This document shows, piece after piece, positions 1-25,004 of a stretch of 25,004 bases of DNA. Each line of letters opens with the position of its first letter. Positions within the stretch are counted from its first letter, which is position 1. Source of the stretch: a virus; the IMG/VR virus record IMGVR_UViG_3300048916_000276, positions 1 through 25,004 of that record, one strand, 5' to 3'. The position numbers were made by a program, and so were the translations under genes. A model generated the notes under the pieces. The model was given only the letters and a program-made list of their open reading frames with translations. It made no database searches and was not told where the DNA came from.

Positions 1-426
1 TCACGGGCGCCTCCGGTCGTGCTGGTCGTGCGGTGGTTCGGGCCATTCGGCGGCGATGAGCGCCACGCCACAGAACGAGCCCCAGACGACGGCGCTGGCC
101 CAGCCGCGGGGGTTGTCGTACAGCCACCAGCTAGCCAGACTGCCCAGGGCCCACGGGGCGACGACGAGGTAGATGGCCGGGTAGCCGGGCCAGTCCCGTC
201 CCGGTGGGCGCCACGCGCAGACGATGGCGAGCAGGCCCGCAGCGATCCACGCCCACGCCCATAGGTGCAGGGGCATCAGGTCGAGTAACAGCCTGATGCC
301 CCGGGTGTCCTGGGGTGGCTGGACGAGCAGGCTGTAGCCGTAGATGCCCGCCATGACGCCCTTGAGGGCGAGGACGGCGCCGCGGCGGCCCACCCGGCGT
401 GCGGCCCGGTGGACCGCCCCGCGCAT
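1..426 (-). CDS. Four-helix membrane protein next to the holin (possible second holin/antiholin)
   Basis: A 141-aa protein with about four hydrophobic segments (residues ~17-35, 54-72, 82-102 and 108-126), a very basic N-terminus (several Arg in residues 2-15) and a charged Pro/His/Arg tail. Its ATG at 426-424 overlaps the stop of the holin-like gene as TGATG, so the two are probably translationally coupled. The stop codon occupies bases 1-3, so the gene is complete. A longer in-frame reading from 555 is possible but would overlap the holin gene deeply, so I reject it. Its place as the last gene after endolysin and holin suggests a role in lysis (second holin, antiholin or membrane accessory). 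I see no family-defining motif, so the function is inferred from context only. Confidence 0.75.
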   Translation of the reverse strand: MRGAVHRAARRVGRRGAVLALKGVMAGIYGYSLLVQPPQDTRGIRLLLDLMPLHLWAWAWIAAGLLAIVCAWRPPGRDWPGYPAIYLVVAPWALGSLASWWLYDNPRGWASAVVWGSFCGVALIAAEWPEPPHDQHDRRRP

Positions 427-677
427 CACGACTCCAGCGGCTTGACGGTTGCGAGGGGCGGAACCAGGTCCGGGCGCGGGGTGTGCCGGGCCTGGTAGCC
501 CGCCACCCCGGCGATCGCGGTCGGCACGATCGCCAGGACGAACGGGGCGAGCCACTCAGGCAGCCAGCCGACCAGTCCGGGATGGTCCTGCACCGCGGTG
601 AGACCGGCGAGCAGCGAGGTGGTGCCGAGGTAGGTGGCGGCCGCGGCGGCCTTGACCTTGGTTTCGATCTGGGCCAT
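426..677 (-). CDS. Holin-like small membrane protein
   Basis: An 83-aa protein with two predicted membrane helices (residues ~10-28 and ~43-62) separated by a short Asp/His/Pro-containing turn, and a basic, Pro-rich C-terminus. Size, topology and position directly after the endolysin fit the small two-helix holins common in actinophages. These form the inner-membrane lesion that releases or activates the lysin. The ATG overlaps the endolysin stop as TGATG, so translation is probably coupled. The family assignment rests on topology and context rather than a conserved motif. Confidence 0.75.
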   Translation of the reverse strand: MAQIETKVKAAAAATYLGTTSLLAGLTAVQDHPGLVGWLPEWLAPFVLAIVPTAIAGVAGYQARHTPRPDLVPPLATVKPLES

Positions 678-1129
678 CAGGAAGTCTCCTTCGAGGCAGG
701 GGCGGTGGGGGTGGTAGTGACGTGCATGTCGACGCCGGCGGCGAGGGCCTTAGTGACGGCGGCCTCGATGGCGGCCGTCACGGTGGCGGTGTCGACGCCA
801 GCGGTGCGGTCGAGGAGGGTCTGGACGACGGCGTCCTGGGCGGCGATCTGGGCGCGGGCCGCAGCAAGCTGCAGCTGCAGCGGGTTAACCGCGGCGGCCA
901 ACCACTTCGCGGGCACGAGAGCGTCGTCGCCGGTCCGCTGCTGCCAGTTGACATCCACGTTCGGAAGGCCGTGCTCCCATACGGCGGCTGGGATCTGGGC
1001 GATCAGGTCGAGCAGGCTCGGGGACCCGTCGCCGTCATAGTGGCGGCCTGACCAGGTCACGTCGTCGCGGGCAGCGAACACCCCCTTGGTGACCAGGGCG
1101 ATGATCTCGTCGTCGGTACGTGCGGCCAT
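677..1129 (-). CDS. Possible internal-start product of the endolysin (C-terminal domain, 150 aa)
   Basis: This is the same reading frame as the endolysin, starting at Met378 (MAARTDDE). It would give a free copy of the non-catalytic C-terminal region, which is Ala-rich with heptads and probably helical. Several characterised phage endolysins make such a C-terminal subunit from an internal start and assemble it with the full-length enzyme. Support is the AGGAGG eight bases upstream and the position of the Met exactly at the domain boundary. Against it, the Glu-Glu-Asp codons would create a Shine-Dalgarno match by chance. Confidence 0.45.
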   Translation of the reverse strand: MAARTDDEIIALVTKGVFAARDDVTWSGRHYDGDGSPSLLDLIAQIPAAVWEHGLPNVDVNWQQRTGDDALVPAKWLAAAVNPLQLQLAAARAQIAAQDAVVQTLLDRTAGVDTATVTAAIEAAVTKALAAGVDMHVTTTPTAPASKETS

Positions 1130-2260
1130 GTCGTCGTCCTCCTCGATGGGGCGCGGGGCGCCGGCCTGGACCCACGCGTAGAGCGGTCCGCCGGGGCAGT
1201 CGGTCTGGTAGCCGTCCCTGTGGCCCTTGATCTCGGGCCCGGCGGCGGCGTTGGCCTGGTAGTCCTCGATGGCGTCGCGCAGGCCCTGGAGTTGGGCGTC
1301 GGTTGGCACGGTGTAGCCGGACGATCCGACGAGTGCGCAGATCGCGTAGTGCTGGGCATTGAGCGTCTGGTCGCCGTTGGCGCCGGACCTGACGTTGTGG
1401 CCACGGCCTTCGAACCGATAGCCGTGCTCGCACACCAGCTCGTTGTAGGCGATGTCCATCCAGTGCTGGACGGGGTCAACCATGTGGGCGGCTTGGACCT
1501 TCCGGACGTACGCGGCGCACGTGGAGTGGTCGCCGAACTGGTAGGCCTCACCCAGGTAGTGGATCTTTACGCCGAGGGCACCTGCCATCGGGGTGTAGGC
1601 GCCTGTCGGGGCCGCCGCGCCCCACGCAGCTCGGGGTACTCGTCCCGGCGACGTCCACGCCGCGGGTGCGCCCGGCGTCGGAGGCGGGACGGGCTGCGGA
1701 ACTGTCCCGCCGGCCCAGGCCCGAAGCTCGTCGAAGCTGCCGTTGTAGACGTCCATGTCAAGCGGCGTGTCCGCGAACTGGTGGAAACGCCAGGCAGCCT
1801 GGATCCTCGGGGAGCCAGCTTGGACGTAGTCGGCGATCCAGAGGAAGTCGCCAGCGTTGTCATCGGTCCGGCGCCACCAATCGGCGCTGGTGTACAAGCC
1901 GACCCGGTTGTTCGGGTAGCGCTGCTTGACCGCCGCCAGCCACGCGTTCTTCGCCGCCGTCGCGGTACCGTCTGAGACAGGCTGACCGTACGGTTCGAAG
2001 TCCAGCACCAGCAGCTCGCCAGGCGGGACGGTGCCAATCACCTGACAGAAGTGATCGATCTCGCCCTGGACCGGGTTCTCGCAGTGGATGAAGTGGTAGT
2101 GGCCGACGACCAGCCCGCGGCTGCGGGCGTCGGCGAGCTTGGCTGTGTAGCCCCGCTGGCTGGTCCGGGCACCCTCGGTCGCCTTGATGAAGACGAACTG
2201 CGCGTCCGCAGGGATCGAGGACTGGTAGTCGGAGACGTCGTAACCGCGTGCGAGCGCCAC
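677..2260 (-). CDS. Endolysin: GH25 muramidase plus zinc amidase, modular
   Basis: A 527-aa peptidoglycan hydrolase with two catalytic modules. Residues ~5-185 are a GH25 lysozyme: Asp8 in YDVSDYQ and the Asp87/Glu89 pair in LVLDFEP are the family catalytic acids. A Pro-rich linker follows (~188-200). Residues ~205-365 are an amidase_2/PGRP-type N-acetylmuramoyl-L-alanine amidase, beginning VPRAAWGA, with probable zinc ligands His234, His347 (GHRDG) and Cys355 (TDCPGG). The C-terminal ~150 residues are Ala-rich with heptad character. The GTG start at 2260 is preceded by AGGAGGG about 3 bases upstream; longer in-frame readings lack this site. It cuts both glycan and stem-peptide linkages for host lysis. 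An in-frame internal start lies at Met378 (see separate entries). Confidence 0.93.
   Translation of the reverse strand: MALARGYDVSDYQSSIPADAQFVFIKATEGARTSQRGYTAKLADARSRGLVVGHYHFIHCENPVQGEIDHFCQVIGTVPPGELLVLDFEPYGQPVSDGTATAAKNAWLAAVKQRYPNNRVGLYTSADWWRRTDDNAGDFLWIADYVQAGSPRIQAAWRFHQFADTPLDMDVYNGSFDELRAWAGGTVPQPVPPPTPGAPAAWTSPGRVPRAAWGAAAPTGAYTPMAGALGVKIHYLGEAYQFGDHSTCAAYVRKVQAAHMVDPVQHWMDIAYNELVCEHGYRFEGRGHNVRSGANGDQTLNAQHYAICALVGSSGYTVPTDAQLQGLRDAIEDYQANAAAGPEIKGHRDGYQTDCPGGPLYAWVQAGAPRPIEEDDDMAARTDDEIIALVTKGVFAARDDVTWSGRHYDGDGSPSLLDLIAQIPAAVWEHGLPNVDVNWQQRTGDDALVPAKWLAAAVNPLQLQLAAARAQIAAQDAVVQTLLDRTAGVDTATVTAAIEAAVTKALAAGVDMHVTTTPTAPASKETS
1138..1143 (-). promoter_or_regulatory. Internal Shine-Dalgarno AGGAGG inside the endolysin gene
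   Basis: A perfect AGGAGG (read on the minus strand) lies 8 bases before the in-frame ATG at 1129-1127. It falls between the amidase module and the C-terminal helical region. Confidence 0.45.
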
Positions 2261-2271
2261 GGTCCCTCCTC

Positions 2272-3081
2272 TCACAGGCCCTTGGCGGCCAGCCAGGAGT
2301 GGGCCGCAGCCGCGAACGCGGCGTCCGGGTCGGCCGGCGCCGGGGTCGGGGTGGGCGGGGTGGAGAGCACGGGCACCGTGACGTCGCCCTGCTGGGACAG
2401 CAGCCACTGCAGGTCCGGCGCGGCGAGGTAGCCGCGCCCGCCCTGCCCCCAATCGCCGCCCCACGAGTTGGTGAGCCAGAACCGGTCGGTGTCGGCGTCC
2501 CAGCCGGTGATCTCGATCTCGTGGCCGCCCGCGACGCCGGACGCCGGGTCGACCGGGATCCGCCCGTCGGAGGCGGGATCGGACATCGAGTTCAGCCAGG
2601 GGATGCCGAGCAGCGCAGGACCGGACTGCAGAGCGGAGCGCACCGCGGACAGGGCGAAAGCGTGCGTGTACGACGTCGCGAGGCCCAGGGCCTTGAGGGC
2701 CTTGGCGACGCCGAGACCGCTGCTCCCAGTGTCGGCGGGAGGGTACTGCCCGGGCGCGCCGTCCAACACGGTGGCCAGCGAGTAGAGACTGACAGCGAAG
2801 GCCTCGTCGAGGACGTGCTCGCCAGCCTGGAAGGCGCCGTGGGATGCGGCGGCACCGGCCGCGCTGATGGTGACGGTGACGGCCCCCATGCGGCCGGCAC
2901 TGTCCGTGCCGAGCAGGCCGGTCGCGGCGTTTCCGGTGCACGACCCGAGCTGGCCCTGGTCGAGCACGGGTATACGCCGGGTCCACGACGTGGTGGTCAG
3001 TGCCGACTGCGGCAGGACCCCGTGGGCGTATGCCAGGGAGCGCGGGTCGTGGTCGACGAACCGTCCGAGGGCTCGGGTCAT
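2272..3081 (-). CDS. Papain-like (C1 family) cysteine peptidase
   Basis: A 269-aa protein with the papain-family signature in order. The oxyanion Gln42 and nucleophile Cys48 lie in [11 protein letters not shown], the catalytic His187 in [11 protein letters not shown], and Asn205 in the hallmark NSWGGDWG. There is no signal peptide or prodomain, so it acts in the cytoplasm or reaches its target through lysis or the virion. A Pro/Thr linker (~235-250) leads to a short Ala-rich helical tail ending AAKGL. The ATG at 3081 overlaps the DUF1003 stop as ATGA, so I chose this start over the longer frame reading back to 3402. It lies just upstream of the endolysin. The substrate is unknown: a host protein, a virion protein or a lysis partner are all possible. 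Confidence 0.85.
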
Positions 3082-3521
3082 CGGTCCTCCTTGCGGGTGA
3101 GAGTGCCGTCGATGGCGGTCACTTCGGCCGCCGGATCGGGGATGCCGAGGTGTGCGGCGATGGCCTTCGTCCAGGCCAGCGCCTCCCTGTCCACCTCGTA
3201 GTCGTGCTCCGCGCGCAGGCGGTCGTGTTCCGCCTGCCGGTTCTGGCTGAGCAGGAGGATCGGCCCGGTGAAGCCGGCCTGGAACGAGTAGACGAGGTTG
3301 AGCAGGACGAACGGGTACTCGTCCCAGCGGGACCAGCCATGGACGGTGTTCGCCACGATCCAGGCGCCGGTGAACGCCGCCTGGGCGATGATGAACCGCC
3401 AACTGCCCATGCCGCCGGCCAGACCGTCGGCGACACGGTCGCCGAGCGTCCGATCGTCGTGCCGGGCCTGGTTCGCCGGGTGCAGGTGCTCCGAGGGCCC
3501 CGGGGCGTCGGCGGCCCTCAC
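3078..3521 (-). CDS. DUF1003 family membrane protein
   Basis: A 147-aa protein matching the DUF1003 pattern. A GSWRFI motif opens the first helix (~41-60) and a WDEYPF motif opens the second (~70-91), followed by the conserved SQNRQ..DR..A..DY segment and a charged C-terminal helix. The family consists of two-helix bacterial membrane proteins of unknown biochemical function. The GTG start overlaps the nuclease gene's stop as GTGA, and its own stop overlaps the next start as ATGA, so the three genes form one coupled unit. A membrane protein here could serve lysis, host takeover or exclusion of other phages; the sequence does not decide. Confidence 0.88.
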
Positions 3522-4057
3522 GAGCCTGTCTGCTTCGTCGCGTTCAGCATGTGGTGGTGGATGGCGTCGATGCGGGCGCGGGCCTCGGCGGCGACGAGCG
3601 GGTCCCGGATGACGGTCGTCTGGTTGTCCTGGAGCGCTTCGCCGGAATGGGACCAGTTCGTCGAGCCCGTGACAACGTCAAGGCCGTCAACGATCACCAT
3701 CTTCATGTGCATGATCTGGCCGTGCTCACTGCGCCCGATCGCGACACTCGACGCCGGGTAGCCCTCCCGGGAGAGGATCGCCCGCTCATGCACACCGCCG
3801 GCCTGGCTGGAGTCGAGGGTGAGCTGCACGAACACGTGCTCGTCGGCGAGCTTCTCCCGGATCGCGTCGGCAAGATCGTCATCGTCAAACCCGTACATGG
3901 CGACCACCAGCGAGGTGCTCGCCGACTTTACGAGGTCGAGCAGGACGCCGTGGACGTCGTCGACCGGCGAGTACCAGGTGCGCACGTCCTGCGGGTAGCC
4001 GGGCGGGAATCCGCTGGTCTTGTGCTGGTCAAGAGAGGCGAGGCTGGCAAGCGCCAA
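3518..4057 (-). CDS. Phospholipase D-superfamily (single HKD) nuclease-like protein
   Basis: A 179-aa protein with one HKD motif, H-x-K-x4-D at His117/Lys119/Asp124 (HMKMVIVD), followed by GSTNWS at ~131-136 as in PLD-superfamily nucleases. The N-terminal half has the expected [12 protein letters not shown] and DLADAI blocks. Single-HKD members such as the Nuc-type endonucleases act as homodimers with both HKDs at the interface. There is no signal peptide. Translation probably starts at TTG (4057), with GGAGG five bases upstream; no better start exists. It begins the cassette nuclease-DUF1003-peptidase after the tail spike gene. It may be a DNA nuclease or a phosphodiester/lipid hydrolase; the short length favours a nuclease. 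Confidence 0.85.
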
Positions 4058-4094: not shown

Positions 4095-5795
4095 TCAGGC
4101 GATGCGGGTGGCGATCAGGACAGAGCCGGACCTGACGGTGGTAGACGTGGTGCTGGACGCGCCCTGCGCGAATTGGAACTGCAGGTTGCCGGACGTCGCG
4201 CTGGTGACCACCACGCCGCCGGGCCTGAGCGCCATCGGCGTTGCGGCGCCATTCGTGCCGAGCCGCCGGGTCGTCGCGAAGCCGATCGCCACCGCGTCGT
4301 AAGCCGTCAGGGCGCCGGTTGGGACCCCGAACGACGACCAGGAGCCGGTGGCCCCGCTGGGGACCGTGAGGGTGCACTGAAGGTCGCCGGCGGGCGAGTT
4401 GTCACCGGTGTAGGAGATGTAACCGTCGATCCGGTACGTAGCGTTGGCCGCCAGTGCCACGACGAGAGCGGAGTCATTGACCAAGGTCGTGGAGCTGGTC
4501 ACCGACTGGTTGGAGGCCTTGTAGGCGGCGACCCGCTGTCCGATGCCCGACACCGTCAGGTTCCCAGTGACGGACAGGTTGCCGGAGACGGATCCGCTGC
4601 CTGCGCTCAGGCTCCCGGTGACGCTGGCGCTGCCTGCAGTGACGGCGCCCGGGAGGGTGACGGCGGCGGCGGTGACGCTGTTCGTCGTGGACGAGGCGTA
4701 GCTGGTCGCGGTGACGGTGGCGCTGTCGATGACGGTGGCGCTGGATCCGGTGTCGACCTTGATGGACGATGTCGCGCCGGCGCCGGGAGAGGCCTCCTGG
4801 ACGCCGATCAGGGACACGCCCGTGGCGCTCCCGGTGACCCAGAACGCCGCGGCCTTGTTGACGGTGCTGTAGCAGCCGGTCAGGGTGTGGACGGAGCCGC
4901 CGGAGACCTTGAACCCGGATCCGTCCTGGCTGGCCTGGGCGACGATCGTGTCGGCGCCGCAGGCGTTGAGGACGTTGCCGGACCCACTGGTGATCAGGAA
5001 GCCGCCGCCGCACGCGGACGCTTTGCACCCGGTGAGGGTGGTGTACGAGACCGACGACAGGTTGAAGCCCTGCTGGGTGCTGGTGCTGCCGACGGCGGCG
5101 CAGGCGTCGAGCGCGTTTCCGGTGCCCCCGGACAGATAGAAGGCGTGCCCGCCTACGCTGGAGACGCTGACCGAGGCGAGGCTGCATCCGGTGAGCGTGA
5201 CCAACTGGACGCCGTGGCTGCCGAACCCGGTGACGGCGACGTTGTTGACCTGGCATGAGGTGACCGGGTTCGCGCCGCTGTTGGCCTGCACGAACAGGCC
5301 GACTCCCGTACCGGATCCCGGGCCTTGCAGGGTCAGGTTCCGGACGGAGACGTAGTTGAGGGTGGTGGGGTTGTAGGCGACGCCGTGCGCGCTGGTGGAC
5401 GTCTGCTTGAGCACGGTGGCGCCCGGCCCGGCGCCGAGGAGACTGACCTGGTTGGCCGGGGCAAGCGCGGAGGACAGCACGTACGTTCCGGCCGGGAAGT
5501 ACACGGTGCCGCCCTTGGTTGCGGCTGCGGTCAGTGCGGACTGGACCGCCGAGGTGTCGTTTGTGGTGCCGTCGCCCTTGGCCCCGTACGCCTTGACGTT
5601 GAGGTAGTCGGTGCCGGACACCGCGCCGGGGGCCTGGAGGGTGAGGTTGCCGGAGGCGTCGGAGGTGAGCACGCTGCCGACGGCGGCGCCGGCGGGAACC
5701 TGGGCGGGCGGGCTGCCGGTGAGTACGAGCGGGCCGGTCATGGTGTCGCCGGCCTTGGCGACGCGGTCCGCCGCGCCGTACATCGACGCGGTCAC
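4095..5795 (-). CDS. Tail spike/fibre with pectate-lyase-type beta-helix
   Basis: A 566-aa receptor-binding candidate. The N-terminus has the [11 protein letters not shown] motif common in tail fibres. Residues ~70-115 carry the pectate-lyase-3 entry motif ([15 protein letters not shown], then a PAGTYVL block). A long right-handed beta-helix region with repeated TLTGC/SLIG-like rungs extends to about residue 350. A Ser/Gly/Val-repeat stalk follows ([18 protein letters not shown]), then a C-terminal beta domain. It probably trimerises and binds or cleaves host surface glycans. I chose the GTG at 5795 because it overlaps the preceding stop as GTGA; ATG at 5783 is a near alternative. The frame stays open to 7331, but that extension overlaps real genes and is a shadow. 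Confidence 0.88.
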
Positions 5796-19038: not shown

Positions 19039-19479
19039 TCAGCGGCCGTAAAGGCTGAAGCTGACCCCAGTGAAAGTCGGGCTGCCAGTCCCGGTGACCG
19101 TCCAGCGGATCCGGCCGTTGTAGGTGAGGCCGTAGCCGGTCGAGATGTTGCCCGCGACCGTGCCCGCGAAGCCGAGGGCGGCGCCGGAGATCGCCGTCGG
19201 GTTCGAGGTAAGAATCCAGTTCCCGAAGGCGTCGCGGACGTCGAAGAAGACCGCCAGGCTCGGGCTGGTGCCGGTCGGGGCGTTCGCCACGTTGACGACC
19301 AGCAGGCCGTTCGACACCGACGAGACATCAATCAGGCCGCCGGTTGCACCGTTGACCTGGTTGGTGATGTTGGCCGTCACGCTGTCCGAGTTGCTGTTCA
19401 GCGTCAGCCCGTCAGCGCGAAACAGCTCCTGTGTGGCAGTGAAGTTCGGCATAGGTACACCCGCACGGGCCGGCGGCAT
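19039..19479 (-). CDS. Beta-rich protein after the capsid gene (possible capsid decoration)
   Basis: A 146-aa protein starting MPPARAGVPMPNFTATQELF. It is rich in Ser/Thr/Val/Gly, with GLLVVNVANAPTGTSPSLAVF and DAFGNWILTSNPTAISG, then IRWTVTGTGSPTFTGVSF: an Ig- or jelly-roll-type sandwich. I chose ATG 19479 because AAGGAGG lies 5 bases upstream; the frame's first ATG at 19596 has no ribosome site. Position directly after the major capsid gene suggests a head decoration or fibre protein, which is inferred from context. Confidence 0.75.
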   Translation of the reverse strand: MPPARAGVPMPNFTATQELFRADGLTLNSNSDSVTANITNQVNGATGGLIDVSSVSNGLLVVNVANAPTGTSPSLAVFFDVRDAFGNWILTSNPTAISGAALGFAGTVAGNISTGYGLTYNGRIRWTVTGTGSPTFTGVSFSLYGR

Positions 19480-19504
19480 CTGGGCCTCCTTCTGTTTGTC
19501 GACG

Positions 19505-19597
19505 GTTGCAGAGTGGCCGGGAGTGCTTAGTTCCCGGCCACTACGAACCGCCCTCCTGTCATCAGTTCGGCAGGAAGGCCGTTGTCGGCTCTGCAAC
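19505..19597 (-). other. Nested hairpins between capsid and next gene (terminator/attenuator candidate)
   Basis: AGTGGCCGGGA (19512-19522) pairs perfectly with TCCCGGCCACT (19532-19542). A wider inverted repeat GTTGCAGAG (19505-19513) / CTCTGCAAC (19589-19597) encloses it, and a weaker stem lies between. There is no U tract. It could reduce read-through or stabilise the capsid message 3' end. Confidence 0.6.
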
Positions 19598-19630
19598 TGG
19601 CGTGGACGGACTGCAGGTCATCGCCGGGTG

Positions 19631-21130
19631 TCAGGCGACATTCTGCAAAGACGCCATCGCCACGGGCGCGCGGTTCAGGAAGGCTCCGACACTGCGGATT
19701 TCGTACTCGCGCCTCGGGCCCCCGCCTGCGGTGTTGGCGATGCGGGAGACGCCGTAGTCAAACTGGGCGGTGTCGCGCAGGGCGCGGTACTCCAGGACGC
19801 TCTGGATGTTGGCCTGCGGGAACGGCACGCGGTCGGTGCGGGCGATGATCGTGCCCGGCGGGAGGGAGGTGTGGACCTCGATCGGGACCGTGACACCGCC
19901 CGCGGGGGCGTTGACGATCTCGCCGACGCGGCCACCGGCGGTGACGGAGACGCGGCCGGCGGAGTCGGTGTTGAGGTAGGTGGTCGCCGAGGACGAGCCG
20001 AGGATGAGGTTGGCGATCGACTGGGCCTGGACGGCGTTGACCATGATGGCGGTGGGCGAGCACTTGACCTGCTGCCAGAGCGGGAGGAAGAGCAGGTTCT
20101 CGATCTCGGTGATGCTGCCGCCGGTGAGTGTGAGGGCGGCGCCGTTGAGCGAGTTGTTGATGGAGGGGTTGGCGGTTCCGGTGCCGGGCTGTCCCCACTG
20201 GCCGGCGCCGTTGTAGTCGCCGGCGAGGCTGGCGAGGAAGCCGTCGTACTCGGCGGGGGCAGCGGAGCCGTTGTCGGCGGCGGCGTTGTAGGTGGGGGAG
20301 GCGTTGGCGGTGCCCTGCCAGGAGGTGGACAGGTCAGGGGCGGCGTTGAGGGTGGGGAGCGCCTGGTTCGCGTTGATGATCTTGGTCATGGTGACCGCGT
20401 TCACCGTGGTGGTCGTGTAGTAGTACCAGGTCGTCCCGTTGGCGGACTGGAACCAGTCGTAGCAGACCGCGCCGCGCACCGAACCGACCGTCGCCGAGAC
20501 GGAGTTGGTGGAACCGGCACCGGTCGCGATGCTGGCGCTATTGCCCTGGCTGTTGCCGTTGCCATAGTAGTAGCCGGTGCCGGTGCGGGCCGCGACGCCG
20601 ACGTACACGGTGGTGGTCGCGGCCATGGTGCCGCCCGTGGTCGAGGTGGCCAGCGTGGGTGCCGCGGGCCGGGCGAGCGGGAAGGACTGGCCGCCCATGA
20701 GCTGCCGGTCGTCGCCGATGAGGACCTGGTTGAGGACCTGGAAGGTGCTGATGGCGAACGGGTCGCCGTAGCCCTGGGCCAGGTCGTAGGCGTCCTGCGT
20801 GACCAGGCCCGCGAAGCCGGTCGGCTTGTACCTCGCCTGGAAGTCCTGCTCCTGGAACTGCACTTCGTTGGCGGCGTAGTCGAAGCCCATCGCGGGGCTC
20901 GGCTGGCTGTTGGTGAGGTTCATGATGGCGCGCCATACGGCGTAGGGGTTGCCGTTGGGGCTCTTGACGCGGGCGACGATGTCGCGGAACGGGGTGACGA
21001 CCGGGATGAGGGAGACGAGCTCGCTCAGGTCGTACGAGTAGATGCCGGTGTTGTTGAGGATTCCGCTGGTCTGGGCCTTGCTGATGGCGGCCAGCGTGTC
21101 CTCGGTCATGCTGCCGAGCGATGCGCTCAA
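19631..21130 (-). CDS. Major capsid protein (HK97 fold) with Ig-like insertion
   Basis: A 499-aa protein. The N-terminal region (AISKAQTSGILNNTG, LVSLIPVVTPFRDIVAR, then AVWRAIMNLTN and FQEQDFQARYKPTGFAG) and the C-terminal P/A-domain end (PFPQANIQSVLEYRAL, FDYGVSRIANTAGGGPRREYEI) are typical of actinophage capsid proteins. Between residues ~156 and ~256 lies an inserted beta domain starting APTLATSTTGGTM with VYVGVAART, WYYYTTTTV and MTKI strands, like an Ig/fibronectin module exposed on the shell. The start is TTG at 21130: AGGAGG ends 6 bases upstream, whereas the in-frame ATG at 21148 lies upstream of that site. It is flanked by hairpins on both sides. Confidence 0.92.
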   Translation of the reverse strand: MSASLGSMTEDTLAAISKAQTSGILNNTGIYSYDLSELVSLIPVVTPFRDIVARVKSPNGNPYAVWRAIMNLTNSQPSPAMGFDYAANEVQFQEQDFQARYKPTGFAGLVTQDAYDLAQGYGDPFAISTFQVLNQVLIGDDRQLMGGQSFPLARPAAPTLATSTTGGTMAATTTVYVGVAARTGTGYYYGNGNSQGNSASIATGAGSTNSVSATVGSVRGAVCYDWFQSANGTTWYYYTTTTVNAVTMTKIINANQALPTLNAAPDLSTSWQGTANASPTYNAAADNGSAAPAEYDGFLASLAGDYNGAGQWGQPGTGTANPSINNSLNGAALTLTGGSITEIENLLFLPLWQQVKCSPTAIMVNAVQAQSIANLILGSSSATTYLNTDSAGRVSVTAGGRVGEIVNAPAGGVTVPIEVHTSLPPGTIIARTDRVPFPQANIQSVLEYRALRDTAQFDYGVSRIANTAGGGPRREYEIRSVGAFLNRAPVAMASLQNVA

Positions 21131-21136
21131 GGGGTG

Positions 21137-21142
21137 CCTCCT
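21137..21142 (-). promoter_or_regulatory. Ribosome binding site that fixes the capsid TTG start
   Basis: A perfect AGGAGG six bases before TTG (21130-21128). The alternative ATG at 21148-21146 would put this site inside the gene, so the TTG is preferred. Confidence 0.8.
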
Positions 21143-21152
21143 GGGCATGCGA

Positions 21153-21188
21153 AAGCCCCCGGGGCGCTGGGCGCTCGTCCGGAGGCTT
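21153..21188 (-). terminator. Hairpin between scaffold and capsid genes
   Basis: On the minus strand AAGCCTCCGG (21188-21179) pairs with CCGGGGGCTT (21162-21153), with one G-U pair and an inner GCGC-CCA-GCGC stem, followed by only TTT in all. It looks like a weak terminator or an mRNA processing/stability element ahead of the capsid message. Confidence 0.55.
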
Positions 21189-21211
21189 GGGGGGTGTCTG
21201 GGTGCGGGTGG

Positions 21212-22822
21212 TTACCGCGGCTGGTGGATCGCCTGGAGCGCGGCGATGGCGGCGGCCTGCATGTCGTTGGCGGCGCGGTTCTGCTCGGCGGCGGTGCCCC
21301 GGTAGAGCACGCCCTTGAGTTCGCGGGCCTTGGCGACGTCGACGGCCGGGGGTGCGCCGTGGTCCTGGCCGCGCATGTGCTCGCGCGGCGGGGTCGCTCC
21401 GTTGGTGAAGATCTTCGGCTGGGCGGGCTGTTCCTCCAGCACCCCGATGCGGCCCTTGAGTGTCTCGACGAGTTCCGCCAGTTCCAGGACGGCATCGCTG
21501 GTCTTGGCGATCTTTTCGGCCTGGTCGGCGCTGTTCTTCGTCAGGACGTCTTCGACCGCAGCCAGGAGGCTGCTCTTGAACATGTCGGAGATGGTGTCGG
21601 TGTCGGTGGTCTTGGTGACGGTCTCGTCGTCGTCCGGCGGCGCGTCGGCGGGGGTGCCGGCGTCGGCTGCGGGCTGCGGTTCGAGGTCGGGGGTGTCGTC
21701 GTCGGCGGAGTCGTCCTCGGCGTCCGCGGTGTCGCCGGTGCCGGTGGCGTCGGGCTCGGCTTCGGAGTTGGCGACAGGGGTGACGTCGGCGGGGTCGACG
21801 ATGCCGATGAGGCGCCCGGCCTGGTCGTAGACGACGACCACGGGCGGCTTCTCGCCGTTGGCCTTGGCCACCGGCTCGCCGGGGTGGGGCTCGGTGGTCT
21901 TCTCGACCTCGGCGGTGCCCATCGCGGGCTCCTCGCCGGCCGCTGCGGTGCGGTCCTCGGACGGGGTGGGCGTGGGCATGTCGGGCTCCTCGTGGGCGGT
22001 CTTGACGACCGGGGCTTCGGGCAGCGACGCCAGCACCTTCTGCAGGTGCTCGGTCGCGGTGCGGATCGCGGCCTCGTTCGCCGCGGAGAGGACGCGGCCG
22101 GCCTTGGCGACCTGGCCGAGGGCCTCGACGGTGTCGAGCGCGGCGGGTTCCAGCCCGGCGAGGGCCTTGCCGACGGTGGCCATGGCCTCGCCGGCCAGGT
22201 CGGCTGCGGCCTGCTCGCCGACGGCGAACGACGCGAGAGTGTCGATCACGTAGTCGAGGGCGCACTGGGCGTCTTGCAGGTCCCACGCGTCGTAGGCGTC
22301 GTCGGGGTCGGCACCGGCGGCTTCGAGCATCTCGCGTTCGGCGAGGACGCCGAGGGCGTTCTTGAGGCGGACCGCGATGCTCGTCCACTTCTGGGCGGTG
22401 GCCGCGTCGATCGCCTCCCAGGCGGGGGAGCCGGGGTCGTTGGGGTCGCCGGGCGCGTCGTCGTCGGGGGCCGCAAGGACCATCGTGGGGTCGAGGCCGT
22501 CCTCGGAGTCGTCGAGGTCGGCGCCGATGCCGGCGTCCTTGGCGACGTCGTCGCGGCGGCGTGCGCGCTGCGCGGCCTCGTGCATGAGCTTGGCGATGGC
22601 CCCGGGGCTGCCGGTCATCGTCACGGTCTCCTCCTGGGGCGTGGGCTCGGCGGTCTTGCCGATCAGGTCTCGCACGAAGCCGGGCGCCATGAGGCCCCGG
22701 CTGTCGGCGGCGTTCTTGGCGATGAGGAACCGCGTGCCGTTGGCGGCCTTGTCGACCAGGTCCACGCGGGGGATGGTCGCGTCACGCAGCTCGGTGAACT
22801 CGTCGTCAGCGGGTGTGGTCAT
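21212..22822 (-). CDS. Scaffolding protein with XkdF-type C-terminal motif at its start
   Basis: A 536-aa, highly acidic, Ala/Glu/Asp-rich protein. Residues ~15-36 (ATIPRVDLVDKAANGTRF) resemble the EVSLVD..AN motif normally found after the protease domain of XkdF-like proteins. Helical stretches follow. Residues ~325-435 are Pro/Glu/Asp-rich with a VVVVYDQAGRLIGIV segment. A C-terminal coiled coil (LELAELVETLKGRIGVLEEQ) and a basic/hydrophobic tail (AAIAALQAIHQPR) would bind the capsid protein. The ATG overlaps the protease stop as TGATG and has AGGAG 6 bases upstream. Possible internal starts at 21979 and 21922 have GAGGAG six bases upstream. Confidence 0.82.
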   Translation of the reverse strand: MTTPADDEFTELRDATIPRVDLVDKAANGTRFLIAKNAADSRGLMAPGFVRDLIGKTAEPTPQEETVTMTGSPGAIAKLMHEAAQRARRRDDVAKDAGIGADLDDSEDGLDPTMVLAAPDDDAPGDPNDPGSPAWEAIDAATAQKWTSIAVRLKNALGVLAEREMLEAAGADPDDAYDAWDLQDAQCALDYVIDTLASFAVGEQAAADLAGEAMATVGKALAGLEPAALDTVEALGQVAKAGRVLSAANEAAIRTATEHLQKVLASLPEAPVVKTAHEEPDMPTPTPSEDRTAAAGEEPAMGTAEVEKTTEPHPGEPVAKANGEKPPVVVVYDQAGRLIGIVDPADVTPVANSEAEPDATGTGDTADAEDDSADDDTPDLEPQPAADAGTPADAPPDDDETVTKTTDTDTISDMFKSSLLAAVEDVLTKNSADQAEKIAKTSDAVLELAELVETLKGRIGVLEEQPAQPKIFTNGATPPREHMRGQDHGAPPAVDVAKARELKGVLYRGTAAEQNRAANDMQAAAIAALQAIHQPR

Positions 22823-23199
22823 CAGCTGCTCCTGTTGGGAATGCGCCGCGCCGTTCCCTGCGGCGAGAAACCGGTGATCCGGCCGGACTTGTAGAGGTGC
22901 CAGGCGGCTTCGTCGAGGACGGCGCCGACGAGCCAGTCACCGGCCTTCACCACGACGCCGTCGCCGAGGTCCCAGTCGGGGCCGCGCCACACGTACGACT
23001 CGACGACGGTGGCCGCGCCGGTCGTGCCGTCGATGTGGTTGAGGCCGACCTGGGAGCCGCCGTCCCGGAGGAAGCTCCACGCGGCTTTCTCCAGCTCCTC
23101 CGGGGTGAAGAAATCACGGCCGCCGTCGGCGCCCTTCTGAATCCGCGGGTCGGGTCCCGCCTGGTAGGCGATGCCGAGGACGTAGCGCTGCTCGGGCAC
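22822..23199 (-). CDS. XkdF-like prohead protease domain
   Basis: A 125-aa protein with the XkdF/S78-like pattern: FTPEELEKAAWSFL, VGLNHIDGTTGAATVVESYVW with probable catalytic His55, then KAGDWLVGAVLDE and WHLYKSGRITGFSPQG with probable catalytic Ser112. It would cleave scaffold and capsid during head maturation. It starts at GTG (23199) with TAGGAGG six bases upstream, the site overlapping the stop of the previous gene. It ends within 10 residues of the GFS motif; the usual C-terminal part appears at the start of the next gene, so the protease-scaffold unit is split in two. Confidence 0.85.
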   Translation of the reverse strand: MPEQRYVLGIAYQAGPDPRIQKGADGGRDFFTPEELEKAAWSFLRDGGSQVGLNHIDGTTGAATVVESYVWRGPDWDLGDGVVVKAGDWLVGAVLDEAAWHLYKSGRITGFSPQGTARRIPNRSS

Positions 23200-23208
23200 G
23201 GGGACCTC

Positions 23209-23988
23209 CTAGGCGGGAAGGACGGCGCATCGGCACCGGGGGTGGGCCGGCGGGTAGGCGTCGCCGCTGGGATAGGTGCTGCCGAGCGGGAGCGTTCCGG
23301 CGGCGGCATTGGCTTCGCAGACCGGGCAGACACGGCCGTCTGGCTCGGTCTGCCAGCGGCCGTGCGCGACGCCGCTGCGCCGGTAGCCGTCGGCTGCTCC
23401 TGCCGCGATGGCCCGGGTCGTTTCGGTGACGGCCGCCGCGTAGGCGCGGTCGGGGTCGGCCATAGCGGCGTGCATGGCGGCGCCGATGCTGTGCGGTGTG
23501 TCGCCGGCTGCGGTGCCGTCTGCGAGGGCCTTGGCCGCGTCCTTGATGCGGGAAGCGGTCAGGGCCGCCGCGGTGGCGCCGGCCCCAAGCGAGAGCATGG
23601 CGAGGGCCGGGCCGGTGCCGTGGTCCTCGATGCCGGCCTGTGCTGCGGGGGCGCCGCCGGGCTGCCAGCTGTTCAGGTTGCTGGTGGTGCCGGTGGTCAC
23701 GGTCGCGGCGGATACCGCGCCGACGAGATAGGCGTCGGCGTAGAGGCCAGCGAGCGCGTCGGTGAGCGCGGGCCCGGGCGTGATGTCCTGGCTCGTGAGG
23801 TAGGTGGCGGCGGCCGCGGCCAGCGTCTGCCGGTCCGTGCCGTTGCCGCCGTTGTTGGAGGCGAAGGCCTGGGCCAGTCGGGTTGCGGCCGTGACGGTGA
23901 GTGCGGTGCCGAGCGCGGCGGCGATCAGCGGCGCCCAGTAGCGGGCGGTGCGCTCATCGTGGTCCCAGCCGGGCCAGGCGTCGGGGCT
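23209..23988 (-). CDS. Head morphogenesis (SPP1 gp7/MuF-like) domain, in the -1 frame of the portal-NUDIX gene
   Basis: 259 residues from the slip point to the TAG at 23209. It starts SPDAWPGWDHDERTARYWAP, continues with Ala-rich helices, and ends with the family's cysteine/histidine motif: RVCPVCEANAAAG, then YPPAHPRCRCAVLP. The frame is open from 24000 but has no ATG, and its only GTG (23700) lacks a ribosome site and would remove the conserved N-terminal part. Just upstream is the heptamer C CCA AAA in the phase needed to enter this frame from the portal-NUDIX gene. The protein would therefore be made as a fusion of at least 598 residues. A base loss or sequencing error in the C3A4 run is the main alternative. 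Minor head proteins of this family act with the portal in head assembly or DNA ejection. Confidence 0.8.
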   Translation of the reverse strand, partial: SPDAWPGWDHDERTARYWAPLIAAALGTALTVTAATRLAQAFASNNGGNGTDRQTLAAAAATYLTSQDITPGPALTDALAGLYADAYLVGAVSAATVTTGTTSNLNSWQPGGAPAAQAGIEDHGTGPALAMLSLGAGATAAALTASRIKDAAKALADGTAAGDTPHSIGAAMHAAMADPDRAYAAAVTETTRAIAAGAADGYRRSGVAHGRWQTEPDGRVCPVCEANAAAGTLPLGSTYPSGDAYPPAHPRCRCAVLPA

Positions 23989-25004
23989 TTTGGGTCCGCG
24001 TCACCGCCGCCGGCCTTCTCCACGTCCGCGGGGCTGTCGACGCCGAGCGCGGCGAGGACGTTGGGCAGGCTGGCCAGCAGCTCCGCCCGTATGGCAGGGT
24101 TCCCGGCCAGGAGGCAGGGGTCCCACCAGGCGATCGCTTCGACCTGGTCACCGTCGGGGTCGTCCGGGTTGGTGACCTGGCCGCGGCCTGTGCTGACCGG
24201 GACGGCGGTCTCGGAGTCGACGGTCCACACGGTGCCTTGGTAGATGCCGTTCGCGCTGGTCCACGTGCCGGTGAGTGTGCCCGGCGGGGGGATGCAGCCG
24301 GTTTCCTCGGCCCATTCGCGCCAGGCGCCCTGGAGGGGCGTCTCGTTGCCTTCGAGGTGGCCTCCGGGCATCTCCCACGTGCCGGCCGCGGGGTCTTCGG
24401 GGTCGAGGGCCCGCTGCAGCATGAGGACGCGGCCGGTGTCGGCGGCGCGGACGGCGAGTCCGGCGACGGCGACCTCCCCCGTGGCCTTGCGGACGGCAAG
24501 GCGGCCTGCCTGGTTGAGGCGTCGGGCCTGTCGGGTGGTGACGTGCTGGAAGGTGAAGTCCCTCCAACGGCCGTCGCGTCGGCGCGCCCGAGAGAAACGG
24601 TGGAAGGAGCTGAGTTCCCGTTTGGCTAGTTGGTCCCGGTCGTCGTCCTCGTCGTCCGTGGTGCGGACGAGGTCGTAGCCGGTGATGCCGGTCGCCGAGG
24701 TGATGCCCGTGGTGGGCCCGGTCTGGGCGCTGCCGTCCTTGGCGACTTCGGTGTTGTGGACCATCGCGTTGTACCGGGTCTGGTACGCGTTCTCGGCGGC
24801 GGCTGCGGCTGCCTGGTCGGTGGTGCCTGCGGCCGGCACGGCGCCGGGCGGGGGTACGTACGGCTGGTCGAGGACCGGCTGGTCCTTGGCGGGGCCGAAC
24901 GTTTCCGGGTCAACCCTGCCCGCGACGCCGTCGATGGCGAGGAGGGGGATCGGTCCGACACGCGGGGTGGAGTAGAAACGCGGGGTGGGCCGGGTGGGGT
25001 CGCC
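23925..25004 (-). CDS. Portal-like C-terminal region with embedded NUDIX domain (5' end off-window)
   Basis: The frame is open to the window edge, so the 359 residues seen are a C-terminal part. The first ~50 (FYSTPRVGPIPLLAIDG, VDPETFGP) and the segment ELSSFHRFSRARRRDGRWRDF resemble the C-terminal region of actinophage portal proteins, though the portal call is inferred without its N-terminus. A NUDIX domain follows (GEVAVAGLAVRAADTGRVLM, then the box G-x5-E-x7-RE-x2-EE-x-G: GHLEGNE, REWAEETG), with DPDGDQVEAIAWWDP nearer the end. The box is intact, so pyrophosphohydrolase activity is plausible. The last 20 zero-frame residues (from APTPGPAG) are low-complexity; a -1 slip replaces them with the head morphogenesis domain. 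Confidence 0.75.
   Translation of the reverse strand, partial: GDPTRPTPRFYSTPRVGPIPLLAIDGVAGRVDPETFGPAKDQPVLDQPYVPPPGAVPAAGTTDQAAAAAAENAYQTRYNAMVHNTEVAKDGSAQTGPTTGITSATGITGYDLVRTTDDEDDDRDQLAKRELSSFHRFSRARRRDGRWRDFTFQHVTTRQARRLNQAGRLAVRKATGEVAVAGLAVRAADTGRVLMLQRALDPEDPAAGTWEMPGGHLEGNETPLQGAWREWAEETGCIPPPGTLTGTWTSANGIYQGTVWTVDSETAVPVSTGRGQVTNPDDPDGDQVEAIAWWDPCLLAGNPAIRAELLASLPNVLAALGVDSPADVEKAGGGDADPKAPTPGPAGTTMSAPPATGRR
23927..23994 (-). promoter_or_regulatory. Candidate -1 frameshift site joining portal-NUDIX to the head morphogenesis frame
   Basis: The heptamer C CCA AAA (23994-23988) is in the correct zero-frame phase (GAC CCA AAA GCC). Downstream are a stem TGGCCC/GGG-A-CCA (23976-23960; 11-base spacer) and a second hairpin AGCG..CGCCC/GGGCG.CGCT (23954-23927). 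The -1 frame has a stop at 24003-24001, just before the heptamer, and the zero frame stops 20 codons after it. Confidence 0.65.

Follow-up and report, generated by a model that had tools for sequence, protein, structure and literature searches.

A cysteine-protease-like gene has been described in an actinophage lysis cassette, and in phage BetterKatz such a gene is listed as a predicted endolysin (PMC4982276). Wolbachia phage WO has a putative lytic cassette, adjoining tail genes, in which a holin-like protein neighbours a lytic enzyme and which in some variants includes a PLD-family endonuclease (PMC9203015). In a mycobacteriophage lysis cassette, a 2-TMD N-in/C-in protein affects lysis timing (PMC13056207), and in Gordonia phages holin-like genes seem to enter and leave the lysis cassette singly (PMC9671378). 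There is very little published work on DUF1003; our literature search returned no paper combining 'DUF1003' and 'phage', and none linking the Nuc-type nuclease family or DUF1003 proteins to actinophage lysis.

We analysed a virus record of 25,004 bases, referred to here as the window, in which genes for a PLD-family nuclease, a DUF1003 membrane protein and a papain-like C1 peptidase stand in a row. The arrangement resembles that in the Gordonia phages BetterKatz, Sixama, Morgana and Lilbeanie and the Arthrobacter phage Mufasa8, where a cysteine peptidase lies among genes for lysin A, holin and small membrane proteins downstream of the tail genes (PMC4982276); however, those phages gave no PLD match, are absent from the DUF1003 matches and have different lysin domains. 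Phage WO differs in having patatin in place of an endolysin, with papain-like peptidase and DUF1003 unmentioned (PMC9203015), and its PLD is likened to ours by family description. The window fits a known kind of locus, the mosaic cassette. The first-pass annotation knew of no such three-part system; the parts do have precedents (PMC4982276, PMC9203015), whereas the combination is absent from the literature searched. We consider it likely that the three genes were acquired separately, as accessory genes at the head of a late actinophage lysis cassette, between tail spike and endolysin.

Layout of the locus

On the minus strand, which carries the trio and all the lysis genes, tail genes are followed by a beta-helix spike, the PLD, DUF1003 and C1 peptidase genes, a GH25/amidase endolysin, a holin and a further membrane protein (Table 1). 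The three reading frames and their placement between spike and endolysin are as first annotated: all are intact and match Pfam domains, with the spike upstream and the endolysin and holin downstream. As in actinophage lysis cassettes, the genes form a contiguous same-strand run that follows the tail genes and includes an endolysin and holin-like genes. At the DNA level the holin gene is 78.5% identical to the one annotated as holin in Streptomyces phage mu1/6, and the 141-aa membrane protein next to it possibly belongs to the cassette as well. The virus is a tailed phage of soil actinobacteria, with a probable Streptomycetaceae host.

Table 1. Features of the cassette and its upstream border in the window.
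Feature	Position	Strand	Details
Beta-helix tail spike, upstream border of the slot	4095..5795	-	profile matches
PLD-family nuclease (single-HKD, Nuc/NucT-like)	3518..4057	-	179 aa; TTG start; GGAGG ribosome-binding site
PLD stop / DUF1003 start overlap, GTGA	3518..3521	-	read from sequence
DUF1003 protein	3078..3521	-	147 aa; GTG start; two membrane helices
DUF1003 stop / peptidase start overlap, ATGA	3078..3081	-	read from sequence
Papain-like C1 peptidase	2272..3081	-	269 aa; ATG start; Q42/C48/H187/N205; Pro-rich linker, C-terminal helix
Endolysin, GH25 + Amidase_2-like domain	677..2260	-	GTG start; ribosome-binding site GAGGAGGG; PF01510 below its cut-off
Holin	426..677	-	83 aa; weak Holin-X match
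Membrane protein adjoining holin	1..426	-	141 aa; hydropathy only

Both 4-base overlaps reported in the first-pass annotation are present, and they are ordinary. Of 891 pairs of adjacent same-strand genes in related loci, 170 (19%) overlap by 4 bases and 68 (8%) by 1 base, and the chance of two consecutive 4-base overlaps is about 3.6%; as 4-base overlaps are common in related loci, we rejected them as a sign of a dedicated system. The peptidase and PLD genes each have a strong ribosome-binding site of their own, read as AAGGAGGACCG-ATG and GGAGGACCCA-TTG respectively; the DUF1003 gene is the only member of the trio in which no clear site can be read.

Elsewhere in the window, a 304-aa frame (23925-24839, minus strand) has a NUDIX hydrolase match (6e-16) together with a weak portal-protein match. 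A 1249-aa open frame on the plus strand (19145-22894) runs antisense to minus-strand phage genes, one of which matches PHROG 13692 (6e-46), and is probably a GC-rich shadow frame.

The three protein families

The PLD protein matches Pfam PLDc_2 (4.7e-15), and its residues H117, K119 and D124, earlier claimed to be intact, are invariant in an alignment of 27 sequences. The H-x-K-x4-D motif and a single-domain HKD fold place it in the PLD superfamily; the AlphaFold model has a pLDDT of 90, and its best fold matches are NucT and Nuc. By profile, Nuc (1byr) and NucT (6ehi) match at E 1e-9 and 8e-9, sharing the single-HKD fold and the catalytic motif with the window protein but only 23-26% identity; unlike them, the window protein is encoded by a phage late gene and has no evident signal sequence. 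Because these nucleases are its nearest solved structures by both sequence and fold, nuclease action is the best guess, and the protein is probably a non-specific nuclease of the Nuc type; action on lipid is possible. A tblastn search of public phage records gave no match to it. Weak similarity to DrmC of DISARM (PADLOC, 1.2e-10) raised a link with defence, which was rejected since the NCBIfam DrmC score, 35.5 bits, fell far short of its cut-off, 133. Mycobacterium genomes (L157-L176) contain chromosomal homologues, 55-60% identical, which often lie some 13 bases downstream of a gene of 370-372 aa that resembles a DUF2235-type hydrolase and converge tail to tail on a gene resembling recD, these neighbours being recognised by eye. 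The DUF2235-type hydrolase family includes phospholipases.

The second protein is a DUF1003 family member (Pfam 1.7e-29; 102.5 bits against a cut-off of 27.4) with membrane helices predicted at about 41-62 and 70-95, the second leading on to an extended, charged helix at the C-terminus that reaches residue 125. Its predicted structure, of moderate confidence, is a helical hairpin with the second helix extended C-terminally. A structure search of BFVD returned a single match, another DUF1003 protein (E 0.03), and a sequence search against PDB returned none; as neither search gave a holin, naming the protein a known holin from structure was rejected. It is like the LysF1a-type two-TMD holin-like proteins (PMC13056207) in being small, with two membrane helices and a place in or adjoining a lysis cassette; however, it exceeds them in length and has a long C-terminal helix, and the two are likened by topology and position. 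Position and predicted topology are compatible with a role that we infer to be holin-like or holin-modulating. In related phages a small membrane protein of some kind often comes next after PLD, and the DUF1003 position is filled by unrelated, holin-like proteins of two or four helices, VIT1-like in four neighbours and Iron_permease-like in one. In L003/L073, L004, L011, L077 and L092 the slot also has, between PLD and the two-helix protein, a membrane protein with four helices and about 140 aa, VIT1-like by Pfam in four neighbours. The final DUF1003 alignment leaves out L003:6528-6947, a four-helix protein distinct from DUF1003.

The peptidase exceeds the cut-off for Pfam Peptidase_C1 (PF00112; 7.7e-5) and matches PHROG 16701 (4.2e-50). 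Its C48, H187 and N205, whose integrity had been claimed at the outset, and Q42 at the oxyanion-hole position are invariant across 22 aligned sequences, as expected of the family C1 active site; it has no evident signal sequence. The nearest solved structure is the bacterial papain-family C1 cysteine protease 3ois (7e-23), with which the catalytic residues and N-terminal region align; the window protein differs in belonging to a phage family, PHROG 16701, many members of which have a Pro-rich linker and a C-terminal helix. Among phage C1 peptidases ending in this linker and a short helix (..AAARTWLTAKGL) are L032, L052, L213 and L230. A C-terminal tail common to peptidase and endolysins was considered and rejected, as it was not found on endolysins. 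The protein is probably an auxiliary lysin or protease.

Distribution and genomic position

Relatives were gathered from IMG/VR and from genomes, and families were labelled by jackhmmer; genes were called by a home-made codon-usage caller, which is approximate, may pick antisense shadow frames in GC-rich DNA, and did pick one at the far end of the window. At 70 distinct viral PLD loci, the peptidase lay within 4 kb in nine and DUF1003 in seven; both were present at one locus, the window itself, with 0.9 expected if the two were independent. The trio, which a conserved three-gene system would show in several independent genomes, was found together in none of 65 virus records by whole-record searches, many of these records being fragments. 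Among 395 Streptomycetaceae genomes, PLD occurs in five and the peptidase in 17, and the single genome with both has them adjacent. The trio is not a conserved unit. The first-pass annotation had inferred from the coupling of the genes that they act jointly, and had proposed a co-occurrence search, naming as evidence to the contrary that the genes be mostly apart in related phages; mostly apart is how we found them, and a dedicated three-part system is not supported.

Each of the three pairings is found in adjacent positions at other loci, in some cases in both orders: C1-DUF1003 in L032 and L235, PLD-DUF1003 in L088 and reversed in L026, and C1-PLD in L053 and L020, with PLD-C1 in L111. A prophage of Kitasatospora mediocidica (L153) has the arrangement C1-PLD-2TM-LYS. 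Since the pairs recur in direct adjacency, the association is genuine insofar as they occupy a common genome slot. In four phages that have homologous tail genes, this slot is filled in four different ways: PLD-DUF1003-C1-LYS in the window, C1-PLD-2TM-LYS in L053, PLD-4TM-2TM-1TM-LYS in L004 and PLD-4TM-2TM-C1-x-LYS in L011/L102. All four retain PLD, and only the window has DUF1003. The peptidase precedes PLD in L053, follows the membrane proteins in L011, where it is 33% identical, and is missing in L004. The closest relatives of the C1-DUF1003 pair (in L032, at 66% and 73% identity) and of the endolysin (in L052, at 67%) belong to phages whose tail genes gave no match to those of the window, and the cassette was therefore probably assembled from at least two lineages.

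Two further arrangements were seen beside PLD. In L026, L028, L031 and L020 it is followed by a gene of 161-193 aa resembling a permuted papain-like (C92/YiiX-type) enzyme, and one member of the PLD neighbour set matched PF05708. At L015:6528-7682 and L115:5528-6670, PLD precedes a one-helix protein of 85 aa and a protein of 291-295 aa that is papain-like in appearance (NDQLGDCAIAGS ... GGHY); this is another version of the combination of PLD, membrane protein and papain-fold enzyme.

Same-strand endolysin genes lie downstream rather than upstream at ratios of 35:8 for PLD (binomial p 4e-5), 31:10 for the peptidase (p 0.0015) and 11:2 for DUF1003 (p 0.022), p-values that are optimistic, as the loci often come from related phages and are non-independent. 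By Pfam, the two downstream neighbours of PLD included Rv2525c-like (9/115), GH25 (5/115) and Amidase_2 (3/115) proteins, and those of the peptidase GH25 (14/115), Amidase_2 (9/115) and Rv2525c-like (4/115) proteins; wall hydrolases were fewer among control genes 4-6 places away (3, 3 and 1 of 115). No recognised endolysin lies within 4 kb at 25 of the 70 PLD loci, and in some contigs (L014, L023) PLD stands beside portal or head genes. In annotated Gordonia and Arthrobacter phages the neighbours of the peptidase gene are lysin A and genes for holin or membrane proteins; in phage Shaeky the peptidase lies outside the lysis region, among tRNA genes, and in Mycobacterium phages at distal positions outside lysis regions. 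The lysis-region location of the trio is well supported. Host takeover, exclusion and lysis assistance had been offered as functions; lysis assistance is the best of these, fitting the genomic position of all three families, although not as a dedicated joint system.

Possible roles in lysis

A dedicated system serving exclusion, takeover or lysis, with PLD anchored to the membrane by DUF1003 and activated or released by the peptidase, would account for the overlapping gene ends, for the direct adjacency of every pair somewhere, and for the frequent succession of PLD and a small membrane protein, with another papain-fold enzyme in a few phages. We regard it as very improbable, given that the three meet only in the window, at the frequency expected by chance, that gene order varies, and that such overlaps are ordinary. 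Passenger genes (morons) in permissive late-gene gaps, with functions of their own unlinked to lysis (PLD, for example, as an anti-competitor or exclusion nuclease), would agree with the finding of PLD and peptidase in head or non-lysis regions and with the weak likeness of PLD to DrmC; but that score is far under its cut-off, three unrelated families each cluster one-sidedly upstream of endolysins, and other small membrane proteins take the DUF1003 position in related phages, so that this explanation, too, is unlikely.

Rather unlikely, also, is that PLD acts on phospholipid instead of nucleic acid and weakens the membrane at lysis jointly with DUF1003. The fold includes lipid-acting enzymes (PLD6 and others are among the fold matches), the Mycobacterium chromosomal homologues often lie just downstream of a DUF2235-type hydrolase gene, as judged by eye, and the proposed cassette of phage WO contains a phospholipase (PMC9203015); among solved structures, PLD is nevertheless closest to nucleases in both sequence and fold.

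Under our preferred reading, that of separately acquired accessory genes, the trio would be made late, together with the endolysin. DUF1003 would form a helical hairpin inserted in the cytoplasmic membrane and act in a holin-like or holin-modulating way, and the peptidase would pass the holin lesion alongside the endolysin and cut wall peptides or wall proteins. PLD would degrade host DNA around lysis or, less likely, hydrolyse a membrane phospholipid such as cardiolipin. The three would act at one time and place, for which a physical complex is unnecessary. They appear to be exchangeable aids to lysis and not a new three-part machine.

A bolder proposal, which we hold to be quite improbable, is that actinophage lysis regions contain a recurring functional set made up of a small HKD nuclease, a small membrane protein and a papain-fold peptidase, its parts swappable for non-homologous equivalents such as other small membrane proteins and permuted or other papain-like enzymes (L011/L102, L015/L115, L020, L026). 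If true, it would point, for example, to a stage of lysis that dismantles nucleoid, membrane and wall together. The occurrence of DUF1003 beside endolysins gives this family a testable role, and our results point to a slot directly upstream of actinophage endolysins in which lysis-linked accessory genes, the Nuc-type nuclease family and DUF1003 among them, collect.
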